Assembly (NCBI GenBank): GCA_945903465.1
Contig: CAMDOF010000019.1
Coordinates: 1 to 64,000 of the forward strand
Direction of reading: 5' to 3'
Length of the DNA: 64,000 nt
From: Opitutus sp. GAS368
GTDB taxonomy: Bacteria > Verrucomicrobiota > Verrucomicrobiia > Opitutales > Opitutaceae
Under the pieces are notes generated by a model. That model made no database searches and was not told the origin of the DNA. It worked only from the letters and a program-made list of their open reading frames with translations. Below are positions 145 through 26,965 of this stretch, piece by piece (the stretch's first letter is position 1; every line of letters starts with the position of its first letter). A program made the position numbers and the translations under genes.

Positions 145-280
145 TCCTAAGAAACTACATTTGTTAAACGTTGAGGTGCAACTTTGACGTTGTTTCTTTC
201 GGTCACGGCCAGAATCCGATTCTGGGGCGGGGGCTGATAGGGGACTGGATTTTTAGGGGGATCGGGTCCGGGAGGGGTTT
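145..280 (-). repeat. Copy R1 of the G-rich/palindromic intergenic repeat family
   Basis: tcctaagaaactacatttgttaa...tttctttcggtcacggccagaatccgattctggggcgggggctgatagg..actggattt; near-identical to 3641-3766 and 3768-3892. Confidence 0.8.
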
Positions 281-311
281 TAGATGGATGAGCCCGTTCG
301 AGACGTCGGCG

Positions 312-3300
312 TCAGAACTGGCCCCTGACGCCGACGTTCCAGATCCCGCCGTGGTCCTGTTGCTGGCTGAGGATATCGTTGCGCATGTGGCCCCAGTAAT
401 TTCGCGGCTTGTCGTTGAAAATATTCCGGGCCGTGACAAACACCGAGATGGTTTTGGTGACACGGTAACTAAACTGCGCGTCGTGGTTGAGTCGTGTGCC
501 TTCCATTATGTTCCAACCATTGGCGGGCACGGCGACCCTGCGGAAAATCGGCAGCCACGTCACGTTCCACCGCAACGAGATTCCCTGATGGTCGAACGAA
601 ACGCCACCGTTCGCGATGTTGGTCGGCCGCCGGAAGTTGTCGTAGTCGTCGTATTTCAGCGCCGTATAGTTTCCGAAGATCGAGAATCGCTGCCAAAAGC
701 CTGGCAGGAAGACCATGTTCTGCCGATAGCTGAACTCGAAAGTGGTCAAATGTGACTTGGCCACGTTGTTGACCGTGGTCACCCGATGACCGCCGAGGTC
801 GTAGCCTTGCTGATTTGGGAATGTCCCGCCGATCGGCACGTCCACCGTGTTGCTCCGAATGAGCTGCGAGATATCCCGGCGCGCTGCGGTCACGCTGAAG
901 GAGCCCGCGCGTTTCGGGAAATAATACTCCGCGCTCGTGAAGATATTCCGCCCGTGCTCGGGTTGCAACGCGGGGTTGGGGATGTTGGCCGTCGGAAATG
1001 GCAACGCATCGGGGTTGATCGTCAAGCCGCCCGCCAGATTGTTGAGATCCGGCCGCGTGATCGAATCGTTGAACGATGCGCGCAGGATGAGTTCGTTGCT
1101 CCACCGATAAGTCGCATGGAGATACTTCAGCCACGTGTGGGAGTCGGACGTGTTGGTCACATCCTGGCCATAACGGGCCTGGATGTAGTCGAGCGAAGTC
1201 GTCGGGATGTTGGCGTTGGGATTTCCCGTCAGCTTTTGCTTGGCATAGTCATCGCCGCGGTCGGTCGGGCCACGACCGGCACTGCGCGTTTTTTCCAGAC
1301 GGACACCCGGGGCGAGATCGAACTTCTTCGTGACTTTGATGATGGTCTGCTGATACAGGGAATCGATTTGCTCCTTCACGTCCCAATGGGTCGTGAGTGC
1401 GGACATGAGCACCTGCTGTGGGGTGGGCAGGACGAACCGCTCCGGATGCGCGCGAAACTCGCGCGCCATCGCAAAATGGTCGATCACGGGGATGCCTTGG
1501 AGGTTTCCGCCGGCGAGATTGCGCATCTGATAATACGGCTCGACCGCCCAGCGTTCGTCGCCTGTGCCGGCGATGCCATCGGGCCCGAGGTAGGGGTGGG
1601 CGAGTATCTGGCCTTGGTCGACGTTGCGGATCGACTGACTGATGTCACCGCCCCACTTCAGGAAAAGGGGAACTGTCCAGCGCCGCCAGTCGTAGCGGAA
1701 GTCTGCTTTCGCGGTCCACTTCTGATCCTTGCTGTTGAAAGGCTGCCGCGCCGTGGGACTCGGTGCGGCGGTGTAGTTGGCCGGGTTCCGCCAGTCCGCG
1801 CCGCTCAACTGCGTGACGTTGATTCCAGGATCGCCGCCGCTGGCGCGATCCCAGCGCAACCGGAACGCCCGCGAATTGCCCGTGCTCCCGGCATTGAAAA
1901 AACCGTTTTCGATGTCTTGATAATAATTTGTGGCGATCGAGACTTGGGCCTGTACATCGGCGCGGAACGCACCGCGTTTGAACGCAGCGCCGCTCGCGAG
2001 CGTTGTGGTCGCGCCGTGCTTGTTGAACGTGAGGTTCCTGCTCAGGATCGACACTCCCGCGGTCGTCGTCTGGCTTTTGAGCGAATACTCGGCGCCCGCC
2101 TCGGCTGGATCGTTTGCGCCCGGGCCGTTGACGGCGTTGGCCAGATCGAACGTCACGTTGCGCTGGTAATTGAGGGCTTCGTAGTCGTTCAAGTCGCCGC
2201 GGACCCAGACCATCAGCTCGGGGGAGAACTTATAGTCGAGGCGCACGTTATAATTGGTGCGGGTCGTGACCTTCGGCGTGTCGGTGAGCCGCAGCTGGCT
2301 CAACCGCGGAATCTCGGTGGCGTTGTCCGCTGCGTTCGCGTTGACGACGTAGGTATAGTTGGTGGTGTTCTGTTCGACAAAGGTCCGCGAGAAATTATAC
2401 CCTGCGAGCACGCCGAGTTTCCCGTCGAGGATTACGTCCGAGAATTCGAGCGAGAGGTTCGGCTGGAACTTGTAGGTTTTTTTGTCCGCCGGACCGGCTG
2501 TCTCTTTCAGCGTCATTTGGTGCGAATTGAACTGGCTGCTGGCGGACCAGCGGATCTGCCGGCCTTTGCGATCGAAGGCGCCTTTGCTGCGGAGGTTGAC
2601 GACCCCCGCCAGCGCGCTGCCCGGCACGTCCGGCGTCGGCGTCTTGCTTAACTCCGCCGATTCGATGCTCGAAATGGAAAGCTGCTCAAACTCAAACGTG
2701 CGGCCTGTCCCAATGTTGGAGCTGCCCGCGCTGGCGACCGGCGCGCCGTCCATCATGATCACGCTGTATTTGGGGTCGAGGCCGCCGATACTGACGGCGC
2801 GCACGTCGGCGTTGACAAAGTCTACCATCACGCCGGGCATCATTTTAAGAAACTCGCCAACATTGCCCTCGGACACCTCGCCGAAAGCGTCGGACGAGAC
2901 GATACTCTTGATTTCGAGCGCGGACTTTTGTTCCTGCATCGCCTTAAAGTTTCCTTCGCGCTCGGTGGCGACATGATACGCATCGAGCTTCACGATGGCG
3001 GCATTGGCTTTGTTACTCATCGTGAAGTCTTGGACCACCGTCTGCCCCGGCGTCACCGTCACGACGGTCTCGGCGGGATCCAACCCGACAAACGAAACCG
3101 CCACGCGCGCCTGCCCCGCGGGCACGCCGCTCAGGGTGTAGGCGCCTCCCGATTCCGCCACCGTCGAGATGTTGGTGCCCACGACCGTCACCGTCGCATT
3201 GCGGAGATACTGGCCGGTCCCCTCGTTCAAAATCCTGCCGGTGATGATGCCGGTCCCGCCGGGCTGGGCTTGGGCGAGAGAGAATACGAGGGCCAGCCAG

Positions 3301-3338
3301 ACGGCCAGCACGGTAATGGGGTTCCTGATAAGGTTCAT
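312..3338 (-). CDS. TonB-dependent receptor with N-terminal carboxypeptidase-regulatory-like domain (TBDR1)
   Basis: Signal peptide MNLIRNPITVLAVWLALVFSLAQAQ, carboxypeptidase-regulatory-like domain (ITGRILNEGTGQYLRNATVTVVGT), plug-like region (EVSEGNVGEFLKMMPGVMVDF) and C-terminal barrel ending in F. Confidence 0.9.
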   Translation of the reverse strand: MNLIRNPITVLAVWLALVFSLAQAQPGGTGIITGRILNEGTGQYLRNATVTVVGTNISTVAESGGAYTLSGVPAGQARVAVSFVGLDPAETVVTVTPGQTVVQDFTMSNKANAAIVKLDAYHVATEREGNFKAMQEQKSALEIKSIVSSDAFGEVSEGNVGEFLKMMPGVMVDFVNADVRAVSIGGLDPKYSVIMMDGAPVASAGSSNIGTGRTFEFEQLSISSIESAELSKTPTPDVPGSALAGVVNLRSKGAFDRKGRQIRWSASSQFNSHQMTLKETAGPADKKTYKFQPNLSLEFSDVILDGKLGVLAGYNFSRTFVEQNTTNYTYVVNANAADNATEIPRLSQLRLTDTPKVTTRTNYNVRLDYKFSPELMVWVRGDLNDYEALNYQRNVTFDLANAVNGPGANDPAEAGAEYSLKSQTTTAGVSILSRNLTFNKHGATTTLASGAAFKRGAFRADVQAQVSIATNYYQDIENGFFNAGSTGNSRAFRLRWDRASGGDPGINVTQLSGADWRNPANYTAAPSPTARQPFNSKDQKWTAKADFRYDWRRWTVPLFLKWGGDISQSIRNVDQGQILAHPYLGPDGIAGTGDERWAVEPYYQMRNLAGGNLQGIPVIDHFAMAREFRAHPERFVLPTPQQVLMSALTTHWDVKEQIDSLYQQTIIKVTKKFDLAPGVRLEKTRSAGRGPTDRGDDYAKQKLTGNPNANIPTTSLDYIQARYGQDVTNTSDSHTWLKYLHATYRWSNELILRASFNDSITRPDLNNLAGGLTINPDALPFPTANIPNPALQPEHGRNIFTSAEYYFPKRAGSFSVTAARRDISQLIRSNTVDVPIGGTFPNQQGYDLGGHRVTTVNNVAKSHLTTFEFSYRQNMVFLPGFWQRFSIFGNYTALKYDDYDNFRRPTNIANGGVSFDHQGISLRWNVTWLPIFRRVAVPANGWNIMEGTRLNHDAQFSYRVTKTISVFVTARNIFNDKPRNYWGHMRNDILSQQQDHGGIWNVGVRGQF

Positions 3339-3640
3339 GGTTTCAGTTTTTTTAGCGGGTTGAGAATCGGTCGAGCCGGCGGAGCCACTGCTCGCGCCGG
3401 GCGGGCGATCGTCGGCGGCCTTGGGCGCGGTCTTCGGCGCAGACGTGTTTCCGTCCGTAGAAATATTTATAGAAAATGAAGCCGAGGATGTAGTCTCAGA
3501 ATTCATTGACCCGGTGCATTCAAGGATCAATTCGAATTGGGGTTTGATATAAGGAGCTGATGGAAACGTTCGGCGGGGGAGGCGTCTTGGAGGATTTTAC
3601 GGGGGCGTTTGAGCGGGTCCCGAAAACTGGGCCAGGTGAC

Positions 3641-4200
3641 TCCTAAGAAACTACATTTGTTAAGCGTTGGGGTGAAATGTTGACCCTGTTTCTTTCCGTC
3701 ACGGCCAAAATCCGATTCTGGGGCGGGGGCTGATAGGAAACTGGATTTTCAGGGGGATCGGATCCACTCCTAAGAAACAGCATTCGTAAAACGTTCCTGC
3801 GGTGCGTACGGGTGGTTTCTTTCTGTCACGGCCAGAATCCGATTCTGGGGCGGGGGCTGATAGGAAAGTGGATTTCAGGGGGGGCGGATCCGGGAGGCGC
3901 AACGTGGGATTGGGATGGGTTAGCCACAATCAGTCGATTTTGAGAGGGCGGCGGGGACGGCTGATGCGGGGGACTTGGGGTGGGGAACGGCGGCGGCGAC
4001 GGAAAGGGGGATTGCGGGCGGGAATCGAGGCTCTGCTTGCCGTTGGGGGGCAATCATCGCGGGGTGGGGAAGAACAGGTGCTGAACTCCGGATTGCTCGG
4101 AGTCAAGGAGCCAGCGTTTTTAGAGTGGCGGTAAACTCCTAACCGGGGTCGGAACCGCTTGCGCGGACTTGCCACCCATGCCCCCCACGGCCTTCGGCAC
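3641..4200 (-). repeat. Copy R2 of the repeat family, with a tandem duplication of the ~125 bp palindromic unit (3641-3766 and 3768-3892) followed by the ~300 bp body
   Basis: Two units each containing tcctaagaaac...catt.gt.aa.cgtt...tttctttc.gtcacggcca.aatccgattctggggcgggggctgatagg; the body matches 13700-13990. Confidence 0.85.
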
Positions 4201-10663: not shown

Positions 10664-13552
10664 TCAAAAACTCCCTTTCACCCCGAAGCTCCAGACCGAG
10701 CCCTGGATCAACGTCTGGTTGTGCACGCCGGGGAACGCCCGCAGCGTCTTGTATTGGGGATTGTTCAGGATGTTCCGGCCGGTGACGAAGAGCGACGTCC
10801 TCCCCGTCAGTTGATAGCTCCAGTTGGTGGACGTGATCGTGCGGTCCTTGTAGCGATTGACCGTCGGATTCTGGTTGTGCTCCCCGGCCCACGTGCCGCT
10901 GACCGAGGCGTTGAGCCGGCGGTAACGGAACGAGATGCCGCCGGAGGCGAATTTTGGCGCCCCCGCGTAGTCCAGCTCGGGATCGGAGCTTTGCACCTGC
11001 GTCCAGTTCAGGAATACGCCGAGGCCCTTAAACACCCCCGGCAACATCGATAGCTGCTGGCGATACTCCAGCTCCAGGCCCTTCGTGCTGAAGCTGCCGA
11101 CGTTGTCCTGCGTGGTGAACAGGTAGTGCGGATATTCGGCGCCCATTCCGATTTCCTCCGCGGGGACAGCCGAGAGCTGCGCGTGATAATCCTTCATGCG
11201 AAACATGAACACACCCGCCGAAATCACGCCGCCCGGCTCGAAATATTTCTCCACCCGAATCGAATAGTTGTCCCCGCGTTCGGGCTTGAGCTCCAAGTTG
11301 GGAATCGTGCCGGTCATGGTCGCGTCGTTGACCGTCGCCACCGCGGCCAGCGTGCTCAGGGCGGCGCGCTGGATCGACTGGCTGAATCCCGCGATCAACA
11401 TCAGGTTCTCCTCGAAGCGATAGCGCCCCGACGCGCTGAAGAAAACATTGTTGTACGTTCCGGTGCGGGTCCTCGGCACGTTTCGCTCGTAGACCCTGCC
11501 CTGCGTCTTGGTCGCCTCATAGCGGACTCCCTCCTGGATCGTCAGGCGACCAATCTGGGTGGTGGCCATGACATAGGCCGCATCGATGTATTCGCGCGCC
11601 AGTCGGTACGGAAACAGATTGGCCGCGCTCGTGGCGTTCGCCGGGTTCGGAATGAATTGCTCGGGATTCGTTTTCTGGATGCGACCCAGGGCCGTGCGAT
11701 CCGGAAACTGGAAAAACCGATCGAAAATGTTGCCGGCATCGAGCGGCTCGAGCCCCTGGAAGGCGACCGAGACCGGAATTTCCGCCGTCAGCCGGTTGTT
11801 CTGCGGACCGACATACGTCCAGGAGCTGCTCCGACCGATGTTCTTGAAGGTGCCGGCCTGCGACTTGCCGCCCACTTTCAATGTGGTCGGAAGCGTCCAG
11901 CCCGTCGTGTACTTCGCGTTGATTTGGCCGATGAGCGCCTTCGACGTCGGCTCGCTCTCGGTCCGCACCAGGTTGTTCGTGAGACTCGTGCTCCGCCAGT
12001 TGGCGAGCGTGTACACGTCCGGACCCGACGTCTGCCGGAAACTGAAATTCGTGTCGCCCGCGTACGCCCGCGTCGCGGTGAAGCCCACGTTGAACAACTG
12101 ATAGTTCGCCTGGAAGAAGGGATCGTCCCCATCCATGCGCCCATTGCGCGTGTACGAATTGAGATAGGTGTAGGCGATGGAACCTTCGACGTTCAGTGGG
12201 CCCTTGGTGTACGCGACCTGCGGGGCAAAGGTGTAGGTCAACCGCGTGCGGTTGGTATGCGAACCTTGGATACCGAAACGCGTCGCATTGGTCGCGGTGG
12301 GGTTGGCGATCATCGCCGTCACGGTCGCATTGGGCGCCTGGCTCGCGCGGGTGGCACTGAGCGAAACCGCGCGCTGCGGTTGCCGCCAGTCCTCCCAGCC
12401 GATCTGGCCGCGCAGCGCGAACGTGAGCTCGGGCGTGACGTTGTACTCCATGTTCAAGCCGCCGCCGCGCCGTTTGACCAGCTTGGGGTTGATGCCGAAA
12501 ATCACCGACGTGATCACCATGGGTGCCGGGTTGTACGCGGTCGGCACCGTGTCGTAGGTGGGGTTCAGGAAACCCGACGTGAGGATGGAGTTGTTCTCGC
12601 TCAGGTTCAGCACCAGGCCGAGCTTTCCGCCGAGGTACACGTCGGAAAAATCCAGGGCCACCGACGGCAGGGTCTTGTAGTTCTTCTTGTCCTCCGGTCC
12701 CGGTGATTTGCCCAGCGCGGCGTCGGCGGTGCTGATGATTGTATAGAGCTGCCAGCCGAAATACCGGCCTTTCCGCTGAAACGCGCTCTTGCTCTTCATG
12801 TTGATTGTACCCGCCGGTGCATCGGCGTCCATGTCGGCGCTGTTGGTCTTGGTGTATTCGATCGTGTCGGTCGCGGAGGCCGAATAGGAGGTCAGCTCGG
12901 ACGCGCGCGTTCCGCCACCGGTCATGCGCACGCCATCGACCTGGAGCGCGCCATATTTTGCCGCCATGCCCCGCATCATGGGATTGGCCGGCTCGCCATC
13001 CGTGTACCTGAGCTGGAGGCCCGGCAGGTACTGCAGCACCTCGCCGATATTGCCCTCCGTCATGATGCTGAAGGTGTCCGACGCGACGACGTTTTTGATG
13101 TTCAGCGAATTTCGCTGCTCCATCATCGCCTTGGCCGTACCCTCTTTTTCGCCCGTCACCGTGAACTTGCCGAGGCTGATGACTTCCCCGGCTCCGGTTT
13201 CGGCGGCCCATTGAAGGTCAAAATCCTTCGTCACCGTGCCACCCTGGGCCACGGTCACGCTGGCCGTCGCGGTCTTGAATCCACTGTGGCTGACCGTGAC
13301 GGTGACCGCTCCGGGGGAAACGTTGGCGATGCGATAACGGCCGTCGGCGGCGGTGGTCTCGAGGATGCCGGTACCCTGCACGCGCATCTCGGCGTAGTGG
13401 ACATATTCTCCGGTTGACGGGTTGAACACCCGGCCTTCGATCGTCCCCGTGGCCGATCGGGCGGGAGCACCGGCAGTTTCGGCGGCATGCACAGGCGCCA
13501 GGGCCAGCGCAACCCAGCCGGACAGTAGGGCAACGGGATTCAGTCTTTTCAT
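10664..13552 (-). CDS. TonB-dependent receptor (TBDR2)
   Basis: MKRLNPVALLSGWVALALAPVHA signal; GTIEGRVFNPSTGEYVHYAEMRVQG; ITEGNIGEVLQYLPGLQL-like plug; barrel ends VWSFGVKGSF. Confidence 0.9.
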   Translation of the reverse strand: MKRLNPVALLSGWVALALAPVHAAETAGAPARSATGTIEGRVFNPSTGEYVHYAEMRVQGTGILETTAADGRYRIANVSPGAVTVTVSHSGFKTATASVTVAQGGTVTKDFDLQWAAETGAGEVISLGKFTVTGEKEGTAKAMMEQRNSLNIKNVVASDTFSIMTEGNIGEVLQYLPGLQLRYTDGEPANPMMRGMAAKYGALQVDGVRMTGGGTRASELTSYSASATDTIEYTKTNSADMDADAPAGTINMKSKSAFQRKGRYFGWQLYTIISTADAALGKSPGPEDKKNYKTLPSVALDFSDVYLGGKLGLVLNLSENNSILTSGFLNPTYDTVPTAYNPAPMVITSVIFGINPKLVKRRGGGLNMEYNVTPELTFALRGQIGWEDWRQPQRAVSLSATRASQAPNATVTAMIANPTATNATRFGIQGSHTNRTRLTYTFAPQVAYTKGPLNVEGSIAYTYLNSYTRNGRMDGDDPFFQANYQLFNVGFTATRAYAGDTNFSFRQTSGPDVYTLANWRSTSLTNNLVRTESEPTSKALIGQINAKYTTGWTLPTTLKVGGKSQAGTFKNIGRSSSWTYVGPQNNRLTAEIPVSVAFQGLEPLDAGNIFDRFFQFPDRTALGRIQKTNPEQFIPNPANATSAANLFPYRLAREYIDAAYVMATTQIGRLTIQEGVRYEATKTQGRVYERNVPRTRTGTYNNVFFSASGRYRFEENLMLIAGFSQSIQRAALSTLAAVATVNDATMTGTIPNLELKPERGDNYSIRVEKYFEPGGVISAGVFMFRMKDYHAQLSAVPAEEIGMGAEYPHYLFTTQDNVGSFSTKGLELEYRQQLSMLPGVFKGLGVFLNWTQVQSSDPELDYAGAPKFASGGISFRYRRLNASVSGTWAGEHNQNPTVNRYKDRTITSTNWSYQLTGRTSLFVTGRNILNNPQYKTLRAFPGVHNQTLIQGSVWSFGVKGSF

Positions 13553-13644
13553 CGTGCGGGGTAGGTTTTCTACGGGCTTTCCTTTGGGAAATCGTGACAG
13601 GAAGTCGCGCGAGGAGCCCACGTGGCGGAATCGCTGGATTAGCT

Positions 13645-13990
13645 GCTAGGAAACTGGATTTGCGGGGGGGAGGGGTTTAAGGGGAGGGGCATGGTGGGAT
13701 GGGGATGAGATAGCCACAATGAGTCGATTTTGAGAGGGCGGCGGGCTCGGATGATGCTGGGGACTTGGGGCGGGGAACGGCGGCGGCGGAAAGGGGGATG
13801 GCGGGTGCGAATCGAGGTGCGGCTTGCCGTTGGGGGGCAATCATCGCGGAGTGGGGATGAACGGATGCAGGCCTCCGGATCGCTCGGGGTCAAGGAGCCA
13901 GCGTTTTTAAAATTGCGGTAAACTCCTAACCGGGGTCGGAACCGCTTGCGCGGACGCGCCACCAATGCCCCCCGACAGCCTTCGGCATCA
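13645..13990 (-). repeat. Copy R3 of the G-rich repeat family, upstream of TBDR2
   Basis: gctaggaaactggatttgcgggggggaggggtttaaggggaggggcatggtgggatggggatgag...caaggagccagcgtttttaaaattgcggtaaactcctaaccggggtcggaaccgcttgcgcggac; matches R2 and R6 over most of its length. Confidence 0.88.
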
Positions 13991-14103
13991 GACTGCTAGA
14001 CGGGCTTATGAAAAACACCCGTGTAAGGACGATGGATCGCCTGCCTCGCGGAAAGAACCGCTCACCGGCATGCACGATCTGCGGCCCTATCGCGGCTTCG
14101 CGC

Positions 14104-14212
14104 ACGCTGTTTTCTTCTGTCACGGCCAAAATCCGATTCTGGCCGTGACAGAAAGAAACCACATGCATGTTGCTCAGGAGCGTTTTACGAATGCTGTTTC
14201 TTAGGAGCAATC
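14104..14212 (+). repeat. Copy R4: inverted copy of the palindromic unit, forming a long hairpin
   Basis: attctggccgtgacagaaagaaacc...gcgttttacgaatgctgtttcttaggag is the reverse complement of 3768-3840; arms CTGTCACGGCCA (14117-14128) and TGGCCGTGACAG (14140-14151). Confidence 0.8.
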
Positions 14213-14338
14213 ATAGCGGTGGTCAGCTAGCACCTCGGCGCTCGCCTGACCACCCCATGTTAACTTTGGATTGTCCGCTCCCAGGCTCTGAGTTGCCGGC
14301 TTTTTCAGTGGTTTCGCCTTCAATTGCTTGGATGCGGC

Positions 14339-15973
14339 TTACGCAAAGCGACAGGCAAACAACTTCGCGCTGCGGAGGCGAAATGCGATCTCGAGATTCT
14401 TTCCGCGCAGGCTGCTCAGATCGTCTTTGCCGTTCCACCGACAGGTCACACGCGTGCTGTCGCCGCTGAATGGCACCGCCTCGACAAAGGTGAAACCTTC
14501 CACGGGCTTGCCGCGCTCACGCAGTTCGACCTCGACACTCCCGGCCTGGGTCGTGCGCGCGTTGATCTGGATTTCGCGGCCGTCGAACCGTGAGGAGTTC
14601 ATCGTGAACTGACCCAGGTGATCCGCCTGGATTCCCGCGAGGCGGTCTTCCTGCCAGGTTGCCCAGCCGACGCCCGCCTTGGTGCCGTAGTCGCCGTAGA
14701 GATTTTGAAACCACGTTTCGTTGTGCGTGGTATTGTAAGCGTTGTAAGACAACGCGAGCCGTCGGTCGGGGAGGCGCACCAGCGTCGGCTGAGAGTAGAT
14801 CGAGCCGCCATCCCACGCGCCAGGACGGCCGAGTGGAATGATTGGCTGGTAGGACACCCACGAATACGCGCGCCCATCGCGACTGACGGCGAGGCGCACA
14901 TCCACGGCATCGCTGTCGCGATGATAGATGGCTGGGAACAGGAGACGAAGCGAAGGTTCGCCGGGATAGGCCGTGTAGCCGTTCGTGTAATAATCGTCAG
15001 CGGGTGCGTCGAGGGGGCCGCCGTAGAGCAGCGGCTGCGGTTCAGGCCATTTCCAAAAATCGTCCGTTTCCGCACGGGAAATCGTCCGACCACTCAAATG
15101 GTGGCGAAAGTAACCGACATATTTGCGCAACACCGGATCCCAGGCTGCGATGTTGAACGTGTCGCTGAAATAGCGAATCAGCGGCTGCTCGTGCTTGGTC
15201 CATCGATAGCCGTCGGGCGAGGTAACACCGTAAAGCCCGTAACGTTTCTGCGAGGAAGCACCCGCCGGAATCTCCGCGGCAGGCAGCTCGGCGAAATGGA
15301 AGAGTTTGTAGCGCTGTTCGGCGGGACCGTGGTCATCGCGGAAGACAGCGCCGCCGTTGTGAAAGGGTGTCACCAAATTATTTTCGGTCGAGCCTTGATA
15401 CGATTGGAGGGCGAGCGACGGCTTGGTCCAGTTCACCCCGTCCGGGCTCTCGGCATAAGCGAGCGCCGAGCCTTTAAGTTCCATCGTACGACCGTCTTCG
15501 ACGGTCAGCTCGGTTTTCTCGAGAGGAAGCTTCGCGGCATACCAGCAACGGTAGCGGCCTTCGTCGAACAACACGGTCGCGGCGGAAATGCTCCGCTCCC
15601 AAGGGCGATCCGCGAGCAGCCAGGGTTGAGATTTATCCGCGATTTCAGGCGTGATGCGAATGCCCGACGGCACATCATTGGGGCGAAAGCCGTGAGCGCG
15701 CTGGTCGAAAGTTTTTCCGAAATCCCGCGACAGATTGTCCAACTGCTTTTTGCCCTCGGGGGAAATGCGGGCCGGATCGAGCATCGGCTGTAGTTCGCCT
15801 TTCTTCACGTGAAACCAATCGACGAAGAGAAACCGTTTCTCGGCAGGTGGTTTCGCCGTGGCGGCGGCAACTGGCTCGGCGGCGTGCAGCGCGGTGCGCA
15901 GTAACGGCACCGTGCCGGCCGCCAGCGAGGCTTGGAGAAAGTTGCGCCGTGTCCAATCGCGAGGTGATGACAT
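14339..15973 (-). CDS. TAT-exported protein with glycosyl-hydrolase-like five-bladed propeller features (function unknown)
   Basis: MSSPRDWTRRNFLQASLAAGTVPLLRTALHAAEP TAT signal; repeated GRYRCWYAA/YAESPDGVNWTKPSL/SPDGYRWTKHEQPL motifs typical of GH32/43-like propellers. Confidence 0.6.
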   Translation of the reverse strand: MSSPRDWTRRNFLQASLAAGTVPLLRTALHAAEPVAAATAKPPAEKRFLFVDWFHVKKGELQPMLDPARISPEGKKQLDNLSRDFGKTFDQRAHGFRPNDVPSGIRITPEIADKSQPWLLADRPWERSISAATVLFDEGRYRCWYAAKLPLEKTELTVEDGRTMELKGSALAYAESPDGVNWTKPSLALQSYQGSTENNLVTPFHNGGAVFRDDHGPAEQRYKLFHFAELPAAEIPAGASSQKRYGLYGVTSPDGYRWTKHEQPLIRYFSDTFNIAAWDPVLRKYVGYFRHHLSGRTISRAETDDFWKWPEPQPLLYGGPLDAPADDYYTNGYTAYPGEPSLRLLFPAIYHRDSDAVDVRLAVSRDGRAYSWVSYQPIIPLGRPGAWDGGSIYSQPTLVRLPDRRLALSYNAYNTTHNETWFQNLYGDYGTKAGVGWATWQEDRLAGIQADHLGQFTMNSSRFDGREIQINARTTQAGSVEVELRERGKPVEGFTFVEAVPFSGDSTRVTCRWNGKDDLSSLRGKNLEIAFRLRSAKLFACRFA

Positions 15974-15995
15974 GGAGAAGAAGCGCGGAGGAGGT

Positions 15996-18269
15996 TTAGA
16001 AGCGGAAGGGCAGGTGCGTCGCGGTCGAATACTCGAACTCCGCGAGGTAGAGTCCGGTGTGCGGCGTGGGCGGTGCACCCTGACCGTTCGTCTCTCGCAG
16101 ATCGCAGACGCGGTAGGTGAGTAAATGCCGCCAGCGGCCGCCGAGGAAAATGTTTGCGCCCATGGCGTGATCGCAGAAAGGCACCTCAGTGCCCTTGTCG
16201 TCGCCGATCTGTTTTTCGTCATGCACGACGAGTGGATCCACAAAACTCTGCCCGCGCAGCGCAAACACGACGAGCGGATTGCGCAGCCAGCCGGGCCCGC
16301 GATTCGTCGCCAGATAAATGCTGCCATCCAAACCTTGGTTCAGGGACTGCGGCACCGTGTGATTCCACTGATCGAACTGCAGATAAAAGTGCAGGCCGTC
16401 CGCTGAGCGATAGACGCGGCCGCGTGAATCGGGTCCGCGCGTGTAGACCACAAAGCCGCCGGCCACCCGCGCCAGTGAAGGCTCAATCTCACCGCGGAAG
16501 GTCGCGTATTTTTTCGCGGTCGCGGCCGTTTTGCCTGTTTGTTCAAGGGTAAGTTTGGACGATTTCTTGATTATCGCGAAATTCCCGCCTGATTCCAGCG
16601 GCCGCCACCGGCCATCTCGATAGCCGAACCGCAGCACCTCGATTCCTTCATCGGAAACGACCGGACAGAGAAATCCCGCTCCCACCGGCAGGCAGTTGAA
16701 GCCAACATTGATCAGTCGCGCGGCATAGGCCTCGGGCAGTTGGTCCTTCTGGACGCTCAGCGCTTTGCCGTCCCAGCGCACCTGGTAGAACTCGACGAAC
16801 TGATCGGGCTGCGGAGTGATCTCGGCCCGATCTGGCGTGAATGATAACGCGGTGGAACAGAGAAAACCCGATCCGGCGGCGGGATGTGGCGTGCCATTTT
16901 CCAGCTTTGCGCCCAACGGCACAATGGCTCCGTTGACTGGGTATTTCGCGAGCACGGCTTTCTGGCCGGAGCGCGTCGTGTAGCTGGCATCGAGCCGATT
17001 GATCGGAATGGCCCGCGCCGGGACAATTTCCGAGAGGCTGCTAAAGATAAATCCATCATTGCCGATTTCAAAGTCGTGTCCGCCTTGCTCGCGCAGAGCA
17101 GCGACCAGCAGGGCAGTGTCGGCATCGAGTTGGAAGAGCTTGCCGATTTCGTAGCTCGCAGGTTTGTCGGTGCCGACCGGCTGGATCGCAGGATGATCGA
17201 GGACCCGTCCGTGCCGCAGCATCCGGCGAAACGTGTGCGCCGTCGGATAAAACGCACCGGCGGCAGTTGGGTCCCGGGTCACCGGCGGCGCCGTTGTTTC
17301 GCGCCGGTCTTGAGTTTCCCGCACGACGATGCCGCGCAGGTCGTCGAGGATTTTGATGCGCTCCGCGTCCGCGGGATCTTTCGTGAAACCCCAGACGGTG
17401 GGAACATCCCCGCCAGCTCCGGGATGGCGAAAATGAGGAAAGAGAGCGTCGAGTTTCCAGTGGGCGATGTCGGCACCGAGGCTCTCCAAAATCGCGAGCG
17501 CCATCACGAAGTTACCGTAAATATTGGGGTGAATGCCATCGGGACCGACGACGCGCCCCCAGCCGCCTGCCGCCACATACTCCTGCGCACGATCCATGAT
17601 TCGGTTCATGTCGATTACTTGGACGCCCAAGGCCGCCGCTTCGTCGCGGATGGCATCGTTGCCGGTATGCAAGCCGTCATCGAGCAACGCGTCCCATGCG
17701 GACCACGGTGCCTTGGGCGCGTAGTCGAACATCGTCATGAACCGAAGGTGTTCGCGATCGATGGCGCCCTGGGCCTCGAGCACCATTTCGCGCAGCCCTA
17801 GCCGATAGCGGCGGTAGATGTCCTTCGCGTTCGGCCACGGCGCGGGGCTCACGATTTTGTCCAGCTCGCCAGCGTCCTCGTAAATCAGCCAGTCACCCGG
17901 CCGCAGATCGCCGGCGCGCAGGTTCACTTTGATTTCGCCTGCGAGCGTATCGACGGTCTTGGGCGTGCCGTCGGGATTGAGCCCGGCCCAGACAGCCGGC
18001 AGCGCGTTCATCGGCGGCGGATTCGGCTGGTTCGCTTTCAGTAAAATGTTCGCGATTCCATGAAGCGTCCTCAGCGGCGAGGGATCGGTGTAGTTGCCGA
18101 AGCCGTAGCCCTTGATGATGCTGTCTCCCTTGAGGTAAATGCGCTGACCTGGGAGCGGTTGAAAACCTCCGGCCGCCACGTCGGTCGCCGCGCTCACGGA
18201 CCAGCCCAGGCCGAGCGCAATCACCACGTTCAGCCACACCGGCCGGGTGTATTTTGAATACGTAATCAT
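15996..18269 (-). CDS. SGNH/GDSL-like hydrolase fused to a large uncharacterised C-terminal (propeller-like) domain
   Basis: GQRIYLKGDSIIKGYGFG (block-I GDSL-like) and VVGPDGIHPNIYGNFVMA (block-V DxxH); C-terminal half lacks a recognised family but contains SADGLHFYLQFDQWNH. Confidence 0.6.
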   Translation of the reverse strand: MITYSKYTRPVWLNVVIALGLGWSVSAATDVAAGGFQPLPGQRIYLKGDSIIKGYGFGNYTDPSPLRTLHGIANILLKANQPNPPPMNALPAVWAGLNPDGTPKTVDTLAGEIKVNLRAGDLRPGDWLIYEDAGELDKIVSPAPWPNAKDIYRRYRLGLREMVLEAQGAIDREHLRFMTMFDYAPKAPWSAWDALLDDGLHTGNDAIRDEAAALGVQVIDMNRIMDRAQEYVAAGGWGRVVGPDGIHPNIYGNFVMALAILESLGADIAHWKLDALFPHFRHPGAGGDVPTVWGFTKDPADAERIKILDDLRGIVVRETQDRRETTAPPVTRDPTAAGAFYPTAHTFRRMLRHGRVLDHPAIQPVGTDKPASYEIGKLFQLDADTALLVAALREQGGHDFEIGNDGFIFSSLSEIVPARAIPINRLDASYTTRSGQKAVLAKYPVNGAIVPLGAKLENGTPHPAAGSGFLCSTALSFTPDRAEITPQPDQFVEFYQVRWDGKALSVQKDQLPEAYAARLINVGFNCLPVGAGFLCPVVSDEGIEVLRFGYRDGRWRPLESGGNFAIIKKSSKLTLEQTGKTAATAKKYATFRGEIEPSLARVAGGFVVYTRGPDSRGRVYRSADGLHFYLQFDQWNHTVPQSLNQGLDGSIYLATNRGPGWLRNPLVVFALRGQSFVDPLVVHDEKQIGDDKGTEVPFCDHAMGANIFLGGRWRHLLTYRVCDLRETNGQGAPPTPHTGLYLAEFEYSTATHLPFRF

Positions 18270-18274: not shown

Positions 18275-21200
18275 TTAGTAACGAGCCTTGAGCCCCGCAT
18301 TGAAGCCCACGCCCATTTTAGTCCTGAAAAACTTGATGCGGCCATCCTCGGACAAATCAGAGCGGGGTGACGTGTCGAACAGGTTATAAACATCGAGATA
18401 GGCGTCGTAACGGCGCAGGAAACGATATTGCAGCTTGAGGTCGACGAGGGTCCGGGGCTCTTGGTACATCCGAAGCGTGCCGGTATCCTGATAGGGTCCA
18501 AAATAACGGTCTTCCCACTTGGCCAGCAGATTCGCTTGGAGGCCGTGGCCACGATACGACAGGCCCGCCGCACCGCTGCGCGGGCGGAAGTTCACCAAGT
18601 TTTTGGACGCCACCGTAGTCCCAAAATCTCCCTCGGTTTCCAGATACGTGAAATTGGAAGTGAAGCCAAAACCCCGAAAGAACCCGGGGAGAAAGCTGAA
18701 CTGCTGGTCGTAGCGCAGTTCCACGCCCCGAATGCGCGCACTGCCGATGTTGCGCGTCTGCGTCAACCGGTAGTTGGCGTACGTCCCCGAGCCGTCGATA
18801 CCGTCGGCACCCAAATCCGAGACAAAGGAGCGGAAGTAATTGGAGATTTGCTTCGTGAAAACGTTGACGCCCACGAGGCCGACCGGCTCGAAGTATTTTT
18901 CAATTCCCAACTCGAAATTGTCCGAAGTATACGGCCGCAGCCCCGGATTGCCGAGCGTTACACTCGGCGGATTGGTATCCGGATTCTCGGTGACTTGCGG
19001 GATCAGATTCCCGGCGGGCGCGCGCGTGATAGACCGGTTGTAGCTGCTTCGGATTAACAGTCCGATCCGCGGCTCATAGACGAAATGCACGCCGGGAAAA
19101 ACATGGCGATAGTTGCTGCTGGCGGTGTATCGTCGGATAAATGACTTCTGGGCGCGGGCCACGTTGGTCGCGACGACCACCGGATCGAAGCTGGCGCCGC
19201 CCACACTGCTGGCACCGAACGACGCCGTCGCGTTGCGCAGCCAAGCCGTGGCTTCCGGACTCGTCTCCTCCATGCGGAGCCCGCCCAGCACCCGCAATTT
19301 TCCGAGCTTGATGTTGCCCATGACGTAGGCGGAGCGGAGTTTCTCCTCGACGCTGACGTCCTGCATCAAGGAGGCGACATACATCGCGTAAGCGTTGGAT
19401 GCGGTCGGCCGCCAATACCCCGCCGGCACCTGGAGGGCGTCACCCGGCTGACGCGAGCTCGGCGGACCGGGAAACGGCCACGGACCGTAACGGCCGCCGG
19501 CCTGCCGGTAGCTGACCACCGTGAACGGAGCCATCGCATCGTCGCTCGTCGCGAGCAGTCCGTCGGCGCCCACAAAGCTCGCCTGTTCGTTTTCCTGGGC
19601 CTGGCTGCGCTTGTCGTGATCATACTTCACGCCGACCTTCACGAAGGAGGGAAATCGGGTAGGCAGGTTGTGTTGGTAGTCCGCCCGGAAACCAAGGAGG
19701 TCGTTGGGTGCCTGGTAGGACACTCGCGTATAATTCTTCAGCAGGTAATTCCTTGCTTCGTTAAGCGAGGGTCCGGCCGTTTGGGTGAACTTCGGATACC
19801 ACGGATCCTGATCGCGCCGGTCGATCTCGAAACCGATGCCGGTAACGTTTGCATACATCCGCGTCCACGCCGGCACGTTGAGATTGGAATGCGAGGTGTT
19901 GCCCTTGACCGAGAGGAACCCATCGCCGTTGAAGAGCTTGAGCTCCGTGCCGCCGCTCATCTGCCAATTTTGATTGTTGCGCGGAAACGTGCCAATTTCC
20001 AGCTCGCCGGTCGAGGCCGTGGCGGGCAGAAGCACCGAGCGCTCATAGGTGCTGCCGGCCGCAAAGCCCGCTACCGTCGCGCCCGAATTCCCGATCAAGA
20101 TGCGGTTGTAATGCTGGCTCTGCGTCTTGCTGTTCATAGCGACCTTGAAGAAGCCGAGCAGGTTGTCCGAAAACTTGTAGTCGACCGACAGGCCGGCGTT
20201 GCGGAAGACCTGCTCGGTCAGAAAGTCGCCGGTACCAAACACCCGCTGCAGCGGATTGGACGACTGCGGATTCAGCACAGATGTCGAGAGCGTGGTGACC
20301 GGGCCATACTCGTCCTGCGTCGTCGTCGATACCTGATGACTCACGTCGAGCGTCAACCCGAGATTATTTTTCCGCCCGAAAATGCTGAAGGCCTCGGAAT
20401 ATGAGAAGGAGAACGTATCGATATTATTGGGCCGATCCTGTAGCGGGCTGCCGTCGAATCCGCGTTTCCGCCAGAGCACTCCGGCGTTCAATGTAATTCG
20501 ACGTCCGGGCAGATCGAAGGCGCGCTTGGTGATCAGGTTCACGTAACCGCCGATGGCGTTGGCATCCATCGCGGGCGTCGGCGCCTTGATGAGTTCTACG
20601 AGCACAATGTTGCCCATACTCAGATGCTCGATCTGCGCATCGCGATTGACGCTGGTGCCGGTGGAGCTCGCCATTCGATCACCGTCCACCGTCAGTTGCG
20701 TGAAGCCTGGCGCTAGGCCGCGCACGGATACGGAGCGAACTTCGCTGCCAACTATCTCCACGTTCACGCCCGGCAGCCGCTGCACCAGTTCGCCGGGATT
20801 GGCGGAGGGGTTGCCATAAACATCGGTGGCGACGACGATCTTTGAGTTCATGGACTGCCTCTGCATCTGGTTCGCCAACGCGTTGCCTTCCCGAACGCCC
20901 ATCACAGTCACGGGGTCGAGCACGTAGATGGCTGAGTTCAGGTGGACGTCGCGGGTCATTTTTTGTCCTGGCTGCACGCTCAGGGGAAGTCGCGCCGTGT
21001 CCAGCCCGGCGTAGCTCACGACCAACGTGTGCGCGCCGGCAGGCAGGGAAAGCGTGAAGCGCCCACCCCGCTCAGCGGTGGTGCTGATGCTCGTTCCCTC
21101 GATGATGACCATCGCCCCTTCCAGCAGGCCGCCGGTCGCTTGGTTGGAGACGACACCGGTGAGGATGGCGCGGTCAGTCGCTTGTGCGGGTGACACGGTG

Positions 21201-21280
21201 GAAAAAAACAAAAGTGTCAGGAATACGATACATATCCGGCGGACGGAATCGCACGGCAATCTGCCGCAGCAATCCACCAT
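18275..21280 (-). CDS. TonB-dependent receptor (TBDR3)
   Basis: LTGVVSNQATGGLLEGAMVIIEGTSISTTAERGGRFTLSLPAG; NPGELVQRLPGVNVEIVGSEVRSVSVRGLAPGFTQLTVDG; barrel C-terminus. Confidence 0.92.
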   Translation of the reverse strand: MVDCCGRLPCDSVRRICIVFLTLLFFSTVSPAQATDRAILTGVVSNQATGGLLEGAMVIIEGTSISTTAERGGRFTLSLPAGAHTLVVSYAGLDTARLPLSVQPGQKMTRDVHLNSAIYVLDPVTVMGVREGNALANQMQRQSMNSKIVVATDVYGNPSANPGELVQRLPGVNVEIVGSEVRSVSVRGLAPGFTQLTVDGDRMASSTGTSVNRDAQIEHLSMGNIVLVELIKAPTPAMDANAIGGYVNLITKRAFDLPGRRITLNAGVLWRKRGFDGSPLQDRPNNIDTFSFSYSEAFSIFGRKNNLGLTLDVSHQVSTTTQDEYGPVTTLSTSVLNPQSSNPLQRVFGTGDFLTEQVFRNAGLSVDYKFSDNLLGFFKVAMNSKTQSQHYNRILIGNSGATVAGFAAGSTYERSVLLPATASTGELEIGTFPRNNQNWQMSGGTELKLFNGDGFLSVKGNTSHSNLNVPAWTRMYANVTGIGFEIDRRDQDPWYPKFTQTAGPSLNEARNYLLKNYTRVSYQAPNDLLGFRADYQHNLPTRFPSFVKVGVKYDHDKRSQAQENEQASFVGADGLLATSDDAMAPFTVVSYRQAGGRYGPWPFPGPPSSRQPGDALQVPAGYWRPTASNAYAMYVASLMQDVSVEEKLRSAYVMGNIKLGKLRVLGGLRMEETSPEATAWLRNATASFGASSVGGASFDPVVVATNVARAQKSFIRRYTASSNYRHVFPGVHFVYEPRIGLLIRSSYNRSITRAPAGNLIPQVTENPDTNPPSVTLGNPGLRPYTSDNFELGIEKYFEPVGLVGVNVFTKQISNYFRSFVSDLGADGIDGSGTYANYRLTQTRNIGSARIRGVELRYDQQFSFLPGFFRGFGFTSNFTYLETEGDFGTTVASKNLVNFRPRSGAAGLSYRGHGLQANLLAKWEDRYFGPYQDTGTLRMYQEPRTLVDLKLQYRFLRRYDAYLDVYNLFDTSPRSDLSEDGRIKFFRTKMGVGFNAGLKARY

Positions 21281-21298: not shown

Positions 21299-21460
21299 CC
21301 TAGGAACCTGGATTTGCGGGGGGGAAGGGTTTAAGGGGAGGGGCATGGTGGGATGGGGATGAGTTAGCCGTAAATGAGTCGATTTTGAGAGGGCGGCGGG
21401 CTCGGCTGATGCGGGGGACGGGGGGGCGCGGAACTGCTATTGCTAGGAAACTGGATTTTC
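21299..21460 (-). repeat. Copy R5 of the repeat family (short), bounded by two copies of CTAGGAA(A/C)CTGGATTT
   Basis: 21299 cctaggaacctggatttgcgg and 21442 gctaggaaactggattttccgg; interior matches R3. Confidence 0.8.
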
Positions 21461-21910
21461 CGGCGCCGCCGTCCCGAGACAGCCGCCGCGCCACGTGAGA
21501 ATGCCCGTCGGGAAACTCAGGCCCTCGGCGAACAGCGAGGACCGGTCGTAGATGCCGTCGCGGTTCGTGTCCTCGAGAATCCGCACGCGGCCGCCCGCCT
21601 TGCCCTTGCCGTCCAGGCCAAGCGGATAGTCCGCCATCTCCACGACCCAGAGCCGGCCGCGCTCATCCCAGTCAAAGGCCACCGGGTCCAGCACCAGCGG
21701 TTCCGCCGCGGCGAGTTCGACCTGGTATCCCGCCGGCAGGTGGATCTTCCGCCGCGACTCCTCGGGCGAAAGCGGCGCCGGCGGCACGAGCGGCGCCGCG
21801 GGAGCCTGCGGCGGTCGCGCGGGTTCAGCGGCCAGCAATGTGCATACAAGGGCCAGCAGCAGTACTACGACTCTCGAATTCATTCTAAATTCCTCGGACG
21901 AGGTAACCAC
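21443..21910 (-). pseudogene. Truncated PVC-type heme-binding protein (N-terminal ~150 aa only)
   Basis: HLPAGYQVELAAAEPLVLDPVAFDWDERGRLWVVEMADYPLG matches the N-termini of the intact heme proteins, then stops inside the repeat (ENPVS*). Confidence 0.75.
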
Positions 21911-23577: not shown

Positions 23578-23605
23578 AAATGAATGGATTCTCCGGAGCC
23601 CGGAG

Positions 23606-23677: not shown

Positions 23678-23722
23678 CGTTGGCCGGCCGGTGCGGGCCC
23701 GGGGAGCTTGAGCGCGCCATGA

Positions 23723-26671
23723 TCAGAAGCGTCCCTCGACGCCCATGGTCCAGTTGGAGCCGAACTCGCCGTGCGCGACGAGATGGTTGCGCCGGTCGAC
23801 CCGGTAGCTCGCGATTGGCTCCTTCGTGATGTTGGTCCCGCTGAGGAACAGGCTCATGTTGCGCCAGGGCAGCCGGTAGCTCGCGCTCAGGCCGACGATG
23901 ACGCGCTCTTTACGAAACTCGTTCGCCGACGTGACGGTCTCATCATTCCACGAACCGCGCAGGCTGCCGTTGAACCCACGGTAGCGGAAACTGAAGCCAG
24001 CGGATCCGACGGCCGGGGAATTGCCGTAAGACAGGACCGCGTTGCTGTTCCGGACGCGCGTGTAGTTGGCGAAGACGCCGAGCCCGCGGAACACGCCGGG
24101 CAGCATCGAGAGCTGCTGGCTGTACTCGACCTCGTAGCCCTGGCTCCGGTAGTCGCTGGCGTTGTCCCAGGAGGTGAATACGTATCCCGGATAGTCGGCC
24201 TCGAGCCCGAGTTCCTCCGCCGGAATCTGCGACCGCTGGAAGTGCAGGTCCGTGATGTAGCGCCGGAAAACGCCGACTGACAGGATGCCGGCCGACTTGA
24301 GGTAATACTCCACGCGGGCGTAGTAATTCTCGCCGTACTCCGGCTTCAGGTCCGGGTTCGGGATGTTTCCGACCATCGTCACATCGTTCACGGTCATGAC
24401 GCCGGTCAGGTTGCCGTAGTCGGGCCGCATGATTGACTGGTTGTAGCCCGCGATCGCCATGAAGTTTTCCTGGAACCGGTACTTCGCGGCGCCGCTGAAG
24501 AAGATGTTGTCGTAGTCGCCGAAGCGCGTGCGCAACTGCCCGCGCTCGTAGATCCGCGCCGCCGTCCGGGTGGCCTCGTAGCGGGCCCCACCCTGCACGA
24601 TCAGCCGGCCGAGCTGGGTGTTGCCCATGAGATAGGCGGCGTCGATCAGCTCCTTGGCATATCTTTTTGGATACAGGTTGTCCGCGTTGGTCGCGTCCGC
24701 GGGGTTCTTCACGAAGTAGGCGGGGTTCGTGTTGAACAGGTCCCCGATCACGCCGCGATCCGGCCACGGGATGGTCCGGGTGAAGAGATTGCCGCCGAGC
24801 TGCGGATCGAATTGCACCGGCGTCCCGACCAGCGCCGGCCCCACCGGCCCGACGTACGACCAGCTGTGCGAGCTGCGCTTGATGGTGTAGATCTCCTCCT
24901 GGATCTTAAGGCCGGTCTTGAAGAACGTCGGCCGCACCCAGGGCAGCGTGAGCCTGGCGTTGAGGTGGCCGGAATATTTTTTCTTCACCGGCTGAAACAG
25001 CGCCGCGTTCCGGACGACGTTGTTGGCGGGAAAAGTGGGCAGCCAGCTGGTCAGCGAGTACAGGTCCGGACCGGACAGCTGCTGGAACTGCCAGGCTGTC
25101 TCGTCGGGGCCGCCGCGCTGCAGCCGCCAGCTGATCGGATAGAGGCTGACCGTAAAATTCGTCGGCGGGCCGACGCCGGAGCCGTCGGGCTGCGCGTTCC
25201 GGTAGTTGTTGCTGACGGTCGAGTACGCCAGCGCGGCGTCGACCCGCAGCTGTTCGCCCGCGTACACCACCTGTGGACTGTAGGAGTGCGAGCGGTCCGT
25301 CCGCTCCTGGTAGCCGCCCGCCATCTGCAGGCGGTTGGTGTTGCCCACGGCATTCGCCACCTGGGCGGTGGCCGACGAACCCGGGTCGAGGTTGTTCCGC
25401 GCCGTGATCAGCGTGAAATTGCGGTCGTAGATGCGGATGTCACGATCCGCCACCTGACCCCGGAGCGAGAGCGTGAGGCGGGGCGTGAGCTTGTAGTCGA
25501 GCCCGAGGTTGCCGCGGTTCGCCCGGTTGGACTTGGGGCCGTCGGCAAACTGGATCTGCGTGAGCACGATCGGGTCGGAGTTCACCGTGGTCGGCGCAGT
25601 GTTGTAGGTGTGCCGCAGGTGGTGGCGCTGGTGGTTGACGTGCGTGATGTCGAGCGAAGCGATCACGCCGAGGCGGTTGCCGAAGAACGTATCCGAAAAT
25701 TCGATGCTGCCGCTGGGGTGAACCTGATAGTGCTTTCCGTCCGAAGGCCCGCCCTCCTTCCGCAGCGTCATCCGCTCCGAGTTGCCCGTGAAGTAGAACC
25801 GCCACGCCACCTCGCGGCCCTTGCGCTGGAATGCGCTCTTGCTGGCGAGGTTGATCGAGCCCGCGGGAGCGTCGGCGTCCATGTCCGCGCTCGCCGTCTT
25901 GTTCAACTCGATCATGTCCGCGCTGCGCGCATTGATGGCGGTGAAACCCGGCTGCCGGCTCGAGCCGCTGCTCGAGGTGACGCGCACGCCGTCCACCATG
26001 AGCGCGCCGTACTTGGCGCCCATGCCGCCCATGCGCGCGCCCGTCATGTCCGACTGGTCGTACTCGATCTGCACGCCGGGCAGGTATTGGAGCAGTTCGC
26101 CGACATTGCCCTCCGAGAGGTCGCCGAAGACGTCGGAGGCCACGATGTTCTTCACGTTCATCGCGGCCCGCTGCTCCATCATCGCCTTGGCGTTGCCCTC
26201 GGCGGCGGTGGCGACGGTCATCCGGCTCATCTGCACGATATCGCCGGCGGCGCGGCCGGCCGCCGTCATCTCGAAGTCGCGCGTCACCACCTGACCCGCC
26301 GTGGTCGTCACCGGGACGGTCACGGTCGGGTGGCCCGCATACGTGAGGCTGAGCGTGATCGCGCCCACCGGCGCATTGAAGATGCGATAGGTGCCGTCGT
26401 CCTCGGAAAACACCAGGATCGACGTGCCATGCACCCGCACTTCCGCGTTGCGCACGTACTCGCCGGTGGCGGGGTTGAACACGCGTCCGGACACGGCGCC
26501 CGACTGCGCCGCCGCTCCGCCGCCCGGCGCCGCGGCGGCCGACAGCTCCGGCGGCACGAGGAACGGGAGGACAGTCGCAAGTCCGAGCGCGAGCGGGAGC
26601 GTGCGCAGAAGGCCGCGGACGGTTGCGCCGTCCGGATACCGGCGGCGCCGGCGGGATTGGAGTGGGGTCAT
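23723..26671 (-). CDS. TonB-dependent receptor (TBDR4)
   Basis: AVSGRVFNPATGEYVRNAEVRVHG; DLSEGNVGELLQYLPGVQIEYDQSDMTGARMGGMGAKYGALMVDG; C-term NWTMGVEGRF; paralogous to TBDR2. Confidence 0.92.
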   Translation of the reverse strand: MTPLQSRRRRRYPDGATVRGLLRTLPLALGLATVLPFLVPPELSAAAAPGGGAAAQSGAVSGRVFNPATGEYVRNAEVRVHGTSILVFSEDDGTYRIFNAPVGAITLSLTYAGHPTVTVPVTTTAGQVVTRDFEMTAAGRAAGDIVQMSRMTVATAAEGNAKAMMEQRAAMNVKNIVASDVFGDLSEGNVGELLQYLPGVQIEYDQSDMTGARMGGMGAKYGALMVDGVRVTSSSGSSRQPGFTAINARSADMIELNKTASADMDADAPAGSINLASKSAFQRKGREVAWRFYFTGNSERMTLRKEGGPSDGKHYQVHPSGSIEFSDTFFGNRLGVIASLDITHVNHQRHHLRHTYNTAPTTVNSDPIVLTQIQFADGPKSNRANRGNLGLDYKLTPRLTLSLRGQVADRDIRIYDRNFTLITARNNLDPGSSATAQVANAVGNTNRLQMAGGYQERTDRSHSYSPQVVYAGEQLRVDAALAYSTVSNNYRNAQPDGSGVGPPTNFTVSLYPISWRLQRGGPDETAWQFQQLSGPDLYSLTSWLPTFPANNVVRNAALFQPVKKKYSGHLNARLTLPWVRPTFFKTGLKIQEEIYTIKRSSHSWSYVGPVGPALVGTPVQFDPQLGGNLFTRTIPWPDRGVIGDLFNTNPAYFVKNPADATNADNLYPKRYAKELIDAAYLMGNTQLGRLIVQGGARYEATRTAARIYERGQLRTRFGDYDNIFFSGAAKYRFQENFMAIAGYNQSIMRPDYGNLTGVMTVNDVTMVGNIPNPDLKPEYGENYYARVEYYLKSAGILSVGVFRRYITDLHFQRSQIPAEELGLEADYPGYVFTSWDNASDYRSQGYEVEYSQQLSMLPGVFRGLGVFANYTRVRNSNAVLSYGNSPAVGSAGFSFRYRGFNGSLRGSWNDETVTSANEFRKERVIVGLSASYRLPWRNMSLFLSGTNITKEPIASYRVDRRNHLVAHGEFGSNWTMGVEGRF

Positions 26672-26688
26672 GACGGTTTGGGGATATT

Positions 26689-26965
26689 GCTAGGAAACTG
26701 GATTTGCGGGGGGGAGGGGTTTAAGGGGAGGGGCATGGCGGGATGGGGGGGTAGTTGGTGGCAAATGAACCGATTTTGAGAGGGTGGCGGGTTCGAATAA
26801 TGCTAGGGACTTGGGGCGGGGAACGGCTGCGGCAGAAAGGGGGATTTCGGGCGCGAATCGAGGCTCTGCTTGCCGTTTGGGGGCAAGCTGCTCTGGGGTG
26901 GGGTTGAGAGATGACCTCCGGATTTCCAGGGGTCAAGGGGCAAGCGTTTTTAGGAGTAGGTAAAA
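26689..26965 (-). repeat. Copy R6 of the G-rich repeat family, immediately upstream of TBDR4
   Basis: gctaggaaactggatttgcgggggggaggggtttaaggggaggggcatggcgggatgggg... matches R3. Confidence 0.88.

Follow-up and report, generated by a model that had tools for sequence, protein, structure and literature searches.

Opitutaceae Verrucomicrobiota carry very many TonB receptors (TBDRs), and the wiring and expression of such a large set of uptake operons are, to our knowledge, not known. In the window analysed here (64 kb, the first part of contig C19 in an 8.16-Mb genome assembly of 343 contigs), a G-rich repeat recurs in front of successive minus-strand TBDR genes, which raises the question of what this repeat is and why it stands there. 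The original prediction had read it as a mobilised common promoter or leader, or else as a cassette boundary for receptor shuffling. TBDRs are abundant in this genome: they make up ~7% of the genes in a 520-kb sample, and at least 150 Plug-domain matches were found in the 8.16 Mb.

Repeats and receptor operons in the window

Repeat search and direct reading of the sequence confirmed that the repeats in the window are real. The main one, referred to here as the B element, lies on the minus strand in all of its window copies and is G-rich on the plus strand and C-rich in the sense direction. It is repeated well above chance, with profile E-values down to 5e-33 and 132 matches genome-wide. Copy R6 (26688-26952, minus strand), identified by alignment, profile match (E 6e-27) and sequence, is a 265-bp B element located 16 bp before TBDR4 (23723-26671, minus). 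R5 (21300-21437, minus), recognized by sequence and profile match, is a 5'-truncated B element 20 bp before TBDR3 (18275-21280, minus), and R3 (13636-13911, minus), found by repeat search and alignment, is a full B element of ~270 bp lying ~85 bp before TBDR2 (10664-13552, minus). R2 contains a B element (3856-4124, minus; sequence and alignment) within an array before TBDR1 (312-3476, minus; Pfam PF00593/PF07715/PF13620). The other three receptors were likewise identified by Pfam. The predicted position of the repeat before minus-strand TBDRs therefore holds for R2, R3, R5 and R6, but R1 consists of a different and shorter repeat, namely a solo 46-bp right-end fragment (S; 235-280, minus) and an A repeat (144-234, minus; repeat search and sequence), a hairpin of ~90 bp that is unrelated to S. 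The gene behind R1 is truncated where the contig ends, at window position 1, and only ~22 of its residues are readable. R2 was also predicted to lie just upstream of its receptor; a B-containing array is indeed present there, but 160-380 bp separate it from the start of TBDR1. TBDR5 (27246-30185, minus; Pfam) was expected to lack the repeat, and the module search gave no match upstream of it.

The 3' part of the R2 array (3640-3855, minus; repeat search and sequence) consists of two A repeats (3640-3731 and 3767-3855) with an S fragment between them. The A family (~90 bp) contains a near-perfect palindrome, CTGTCACGGCCAGAATC..GATTCTGGCCGTGACAG, ending in GTTTCTTAGGAG, and is usually found directly behind right-end fragments; it has no Rfam match. 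Further A sequence, a hairpin with a near-perfect 35-nt palindrome detected by repeat search and sequence, is present at 14104-14240 (minus). Another repeat, M (~180 bp; ..GGTTCCGACCCCGGTTAGGAGTTTACCGC), was recognized by copy alignment directly 5' of some B copies and lies between A and B at 13912-14095 (minus) and at locus L290. Repeat arrays follow the fixed order S-A-M-B-S-A.

The operon behind R3 is composed as predicted, of genes for a TBDR, a PhoD protein (PF09423), a DUF7133/cytochrome c protein and a sulfatase. Other gene labels fared less well: those of 'SGNH' (15996-18269) and 'propeller' (14339-16327) obtained no Pfam match at 1e-5, and the 'ceramidase-like' gene behind TBDR4 gave a sub-threshold ceramidase match only. 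Next to R5, a truncated gene for a PVC-type dehydrogenase-like DUF7133 protein (21443-21883, minus; PF23500) is broken at the element junction, its Pfam match spanning profile positions 1-103 of 385; it ends in a 20-nt right-end scar (GAAAATCCAGTTTCCTAGCA) that is visible in the sequence at 21441-21460 (minus). The R5 junction shows rearrangement at right ends.

Relationship of B to IS91-family transposons

In 29 of the 81 near-full B copies of the genome, the 3' end of an ORF lies upstream at a fixed junction (...EPVFWTEPTRPVRPDD...PADAPESA*), and the ORF tail reads ...DQTGFAWPRAPVDPADAPGQ...EPVFWTEPTRP...PADAPESA*. The longest version of this ORF (on contig C13; L135:259-1833) matches Y2_Tnp (PF04986), and the same transposase is intact in sister species, where it is 511-529 aa long. 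The sole intact copy tested, a 521-aa protein from genome G039 (L269:937-2499, minus), scored 160 bits with NF033538, for which the NCBIfam IS91 cut-off is 125, and matched both PF04986 and PF14319 (Zn_Tnp_IS91). An HPHVH (HUH) motif is visible in its sequence. This protein does not belong to ISCR clade Ia (108 bits versus a cut-off of 925); its putative catalytic-tyrosine site, read directly as AEYLLRAPFS, contains one tyrosine, which would be an ISCR-like feature. Directly behind the sister-species transposases lies a non-coding stretch of ~285 bp, homologous to B, which in most of them ends in ...CCCTCCCCTTAAACCCCTCCCGGATCCGATCCCC(C)TGAAAATCCAGTTTCCTA, the same ~46-bp tip as in S. Likewise, in this genome and in several relatives the transposase gene is immediately followed on its 3' side by B or S. 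Judging from the fixed transposase-B junction and from the sister-species transposases with the same tip, B is the right end (3', origin side) of a rolling-circle transposon belonging to the IS91 family, and it is non-coding.

No intact transposase of the type associated with B was found in the 93%-complete assembly, in which only fragments and the degenerate copy on C13 are present. Contig C1 (G000:C1:175584-179577; L260, L261) carries two IS91-type transposases of another subgroup, with no B behind either and with a tyrosine-recombinase-like ORF near the copy at L260. In one sister genome (G003:C345; L276), an intact transposase copy is present without its terminal AAACCCC..TTTCCT segment, and the loss is exact (CTT|ATCGGT), as would result from precise deletion of the tip.

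All copies share a common right end and differ in their 5' ends. They fall into those with a transposase tail followed by B, those consisting of B alone (~270 bp) and those retaining only the last ~46 bp (S). The 25 transposase matches in this genome are mostly C-terminal fragments, whose starts are scattered from residue 1 to 343. The 31 S copies have one 5' edge in common and unrelated flanks; simple insertion of solo S into single genes was considered and rejected for this genome, where the flanks are mostly different genes or intergenic. Most right ends adjoin a CRRY tetranucleotide: the adjoining four bases read CAAT in 53, CAGC in 35 and CAGT in 11 of 135 cases in this genome, and CGGT in 40, CAGC in 27 and CAGT in 15 of 93 cases in relatives. 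No target duplication was seen by eye.

Members of the IS91 family (IS91, IS801 and IS1294; HUH Y2 rolling-circle elements) require their right end for transposition, produce no target duplication, and have a defined left end (ter) and two catalytic tyrosines (YxxxY). The element described here resembles them in its transposase family (NF033538, PF04986 and PF14319), in its constant right (ori) end with no terminal inverted repeats seen, and in its 5'-truncated right-end fragments of recurring sizes with a tetranucleotide adjoining the right end. It differs in that this tetranucleotide is CRRY (CAAT/CAGC/CAGT/CGGT) rather than GAAC/CAAG-like, in representing a new Opitutaceae lineage with a minimal fragment of 46 bp, and in that right-end fragments far outnumber full copies in this genome. 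In Pseudomonas syringae, one-ended transposition of IS801, which begins at the right end and terminates at ter-like sites, yielded right-end-only fragments of 229, 360 and 679 nt (PMC3189936). B and S are also right-end-only pieces, but the IS801 fragments are few and have not been described as oriented before one gene family, unlike B.

The constant right end, the variable 5' truncation and the CRRY tetranucleotide fit one-ended transposition of the IS91 type as the probable route. Transposition would start at the constant right end (...TGAAAATCCAGTTTCCTA plus CRRY), and copying would often stop early, leaving 5'-truncated copies that retain the transposase tail and B, B, or S. By this process, B would have been amplified to about 80 copies in this Opitutaceae genome.

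Genomic placement and possible function of B

The survey of B used a sequence-only profile built on its 3' 137 positions. The genome-wide matches comprised the 81 near-full copies and ~50 partial ones, mostly right-end fragments; the genes around them were called by codon bias, and TBDRs were marked by phmmer. Scored against gene position and orientation, B behaved as the original prediction required: 71 of the 77 copies away from contig ends sit 5' of a gene on the same strand, compared with 51% for random intergenic placement (p ~1e-14), mostly at distances of <200 bp. A TBDR is the first gene behind B in 45 of 73 cases. In 520 kb of long, unbiased contigs, TBDRs account for 15 of 200 genes that are preceded by a gap. 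Since this long-contig sample contained zero B copies, probably because the repeats break the assembly, a local control was added, in which TBDRs account for 12 of the 107 gapped genes not behind an element in element-bearing regions (Fisher odds ratio 12.7, p=9e-13). TBDRs already constitute 7-14% of genes here, and B could be partly hitchhiking in TBDR-rich regions.

Approximately 40% of B copies head other genes, including those for sulfatases, a PhoD phosphatase, an acyltransferase, DUF7133 proteins, a pectate lyase, a sensor kinase and a TIR-TPR protein. The association with TBDRs is thus strong but not exclusive, and the notion of a leader reserved for these receptors was not borne out. 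By its sequence, B is a non-coding IS91-family end and not a dedicated TBDR leader.

The elements and the receptors behind them have separate histories. Across 41 element-TBDR pairs, the distance between elements is nearly uncorrelated with that between receptors (Mantel r=0.13, p=0.11), on which ground co-duplication of B with TBDRs was rejected, and the closest element pair, 97% identical, heads receptors sharing just 29% identity, indicating that elements moved independently of genes. The similarity between copies, which are old and diverged (median identity 78%, about 78-80%), breaks off abruptly where the right end is reached, in most cases 10-200 bp ahead of the start codon. As judged from these comparisons, the B element is one that moved INDEPENDENTLY of receptors, and the 'mobilised' part of the predicted mobilised promoter or leader is upheld, its vehicle being an IS91-family transposon end. 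A search for empty sites through the orthologs of TBDR3 and TBDR4 in sister species revealed no module at 23 loci; the best homologs are just 45-58% identical and carry no modules, so a clean empty site was not obtained.

Both the orientation and the TBDR bias are seen in copies that are only ~78% alike, which points to selection on the control of the downstream gene. Copies of B located 5' of same-strand genes may be kept for an outward-facing control segment (a promoter, operator or leader). The 3' half of B is less variable than the 5' half, partly an ascertainment effect of picking the copies by a profile of the 3' half, and its quietest block is CCCGCCGCCCTCTCAAAATCGACTCATTTA. According to our own reading of the sequences, the ends in sister species lack this block, which is therefore unlikely to be the transposase site; the AAATCGACTCATTT region of B may be a candidate for binding a common regulator. 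Certain kinds of signal were sought and rejected. A consensus scan of 72 aligned B copies detected no consistent sigma-70 site common to them. The structure and covariation check that had been proposed found no base pair with compensatory change among 29 copies, and no B sequence matched Rfam at the gathering score; a structured RNA leader or riboswitch was accordingly rejected.

Taken as a whole, the explanation that IS91-type right-end fragments were spread by one-ended transposition and kept as candidate control segments is, in our judgement, likely to be correct. A stronger version, in which these right ends have been domesticated as the common promoter or operator of dozens of TBDR operons with unrelated receptors, under one regulator or condition and with CCCGCCGCCCTCTCAAAATCGACTCATTTA as a host-recruited control site, is a tentative proposal, which we would not yet favour.

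Putative mobile promoters, reportedly homologous upstream sequences before non-homologous genes, have been discussed as 'promoter propagation in prokaryotes', work that PMC9208149 and PMC8049555 cite. B resembles them in this respect, but here the vehicle can be named (an IS91 right end) and one gene class is dominant, while the promoter role of B is putative. A more direct parallel is ISCR1, in which the 232-bp oriIS region contains two outward (POUT) promoters that increase the expression of downstream genes 13-15-fold, and where 84% of the neighbouring genes are co-directional (PMC6218425). The orientation of B is ISCR1-like (71 of 77 copies), and B right ends may supply a regulatory segment to the operon behind them as oriIS does. 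In contrast, promoter activity has been demonstrated for ISCR1 and is putative for B; the genes downstream are resistance genes in one case and TonB-receptor operons in the other; and ISCR1 is one element in many hosts, while a single genome holds numerous diverged and truncated copies of B. The arrangement cannot be called undescribed, since right-end fragments of IS91 and outward promoters of ISCR were already known, as had been suggested; the vehicle is of a known kind, and the novelty is the variant and its striking distribution. An IS91 right end placed before ~45 TBDRs, in one orientation and irrespective of receptor ancestry, offers a testable route by which transposon ends would become portable control regions. 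A mobile-element fragment may thus act as a shared switch for many uptake operons, and, if true, this would carry the ISCR1 precedent beyond antibiotic resistance into the evolution of nutrient uptake.

The strongest competitor, which we regard as rather unlikely, is that B is transposon debris without function: insertions within genes or blocking transcription would have been purged, and the TBDR bias would reflect the abundance of these genes and relaxed selection. The unoriented S copies of relatives, the lack of a promoter consensus, the age and divergence of the copies, and local TBDR frequencies of up to 11-14% of genes are all compatible with such debris. However, purging alone does not account for the same-strand placement, because a copy lying in such a gap in the inverse orientation would do roughly as little harm; nor do debris copies readily explain the ~13-fold excess of TBDRs in odds over the local background or, allowing for its partial origin in ascertainment, the lower variability of the 3' half.

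It is less probable still that B and S serve as recombination sites or cassette borders, through which receptor operons are exchanged by homologous recombination or one-ended mobilisation. The R5 locus, where a cut DUF7133 gene, the 20-nt scar and a 5'-truncated B are joined, would suit such an exchange, as would the direct-repeat arrays and the ability of IS91 and IS801 to mobilise adjoining DNA (PMC3189936). However, no two loci were found in which one operon stands behind different flanks, and copies that are ~78-80% identical are poor substrates for homologous recombination. Moreover, pick-up of DNA is expected on the side opposite to the TBDR, because the published mechanism copies from the right end leftwards. 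The predicted shuffling of receptors thus finds no backing beyond the single truncated gene at R5.

We consider it very unlikely that B originated as an ancestral TBDR promoter or leader that was duplicated with the receptors and later captured by a transposon. The strong TBDR association would be expected in that case, but element and receptor show no co-phylogeny, the similarity ends sharply at the 3' end of the element, B stands behind a transposase gene at a fixed junction, and the 23 homologous TBDR loci in relatives are without any module. Finally, an integron attC array, REP/RAYT elements or a reverse transcriptase (RT)-driven SINE-like family could likewise show tandem copies, short 3' tails and a 3' end that is constant where the 5' end varies, but is scarcely credible for a repeat that several species carry attached to an IS91 transposase gene; individually, these candidates were discarded on finding just 4 RT matches, mostly partial, 12 Y1 transposases (IS200/605 type) with few near modules and no terminal hairpin rule, and S copies mostly 5' of genes and not placed as attC.

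Right ends in related genomes

B is restricted in its spread. At a cut-off of E<=1e-10 it was absent from 26 further genomes of the genus, and two loci were found in one Opitutus MAG (L201, L232). The host of the B copies is a freshwater bacterium, and the relatives in which a DNA pattern search detected the repeat tip are freshwater and groundwater Opitutaceae MAGs. S in these relatives shows no gene-start bias (23 of 53), and 11 copies lie inside ORFs. The bias therefore belongs to B in the present genome, which argues against a family-wide preference in insertion, and the tip by itself is not kept as a leader. In relatives, a TBDR of the same orientation follows behind three right ends (L277, L272 and L075).

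Some individual loci deserve mention. At L269/L277 (G039:C137), a near-complete IS91-type element lies at the signal-peptide region of a sister-species TBDR and points in the same direction. At L221:4658-5051 (CANJIU010000137.1), the right-end pattern is matched exactly seven times in tandem within ~370 bp, with (CGGT)n-like tails. Several frames of the right-end fragment (48 nt) are open (e.g. KPLPDPIPLKIQFPIG), and the fragment is located within long open frames of some relatives (L214:6235-6279, L197:4020-4054 and L225:1193-1235), which recalls the protein-inserted palindromic elements of Rickettsia.
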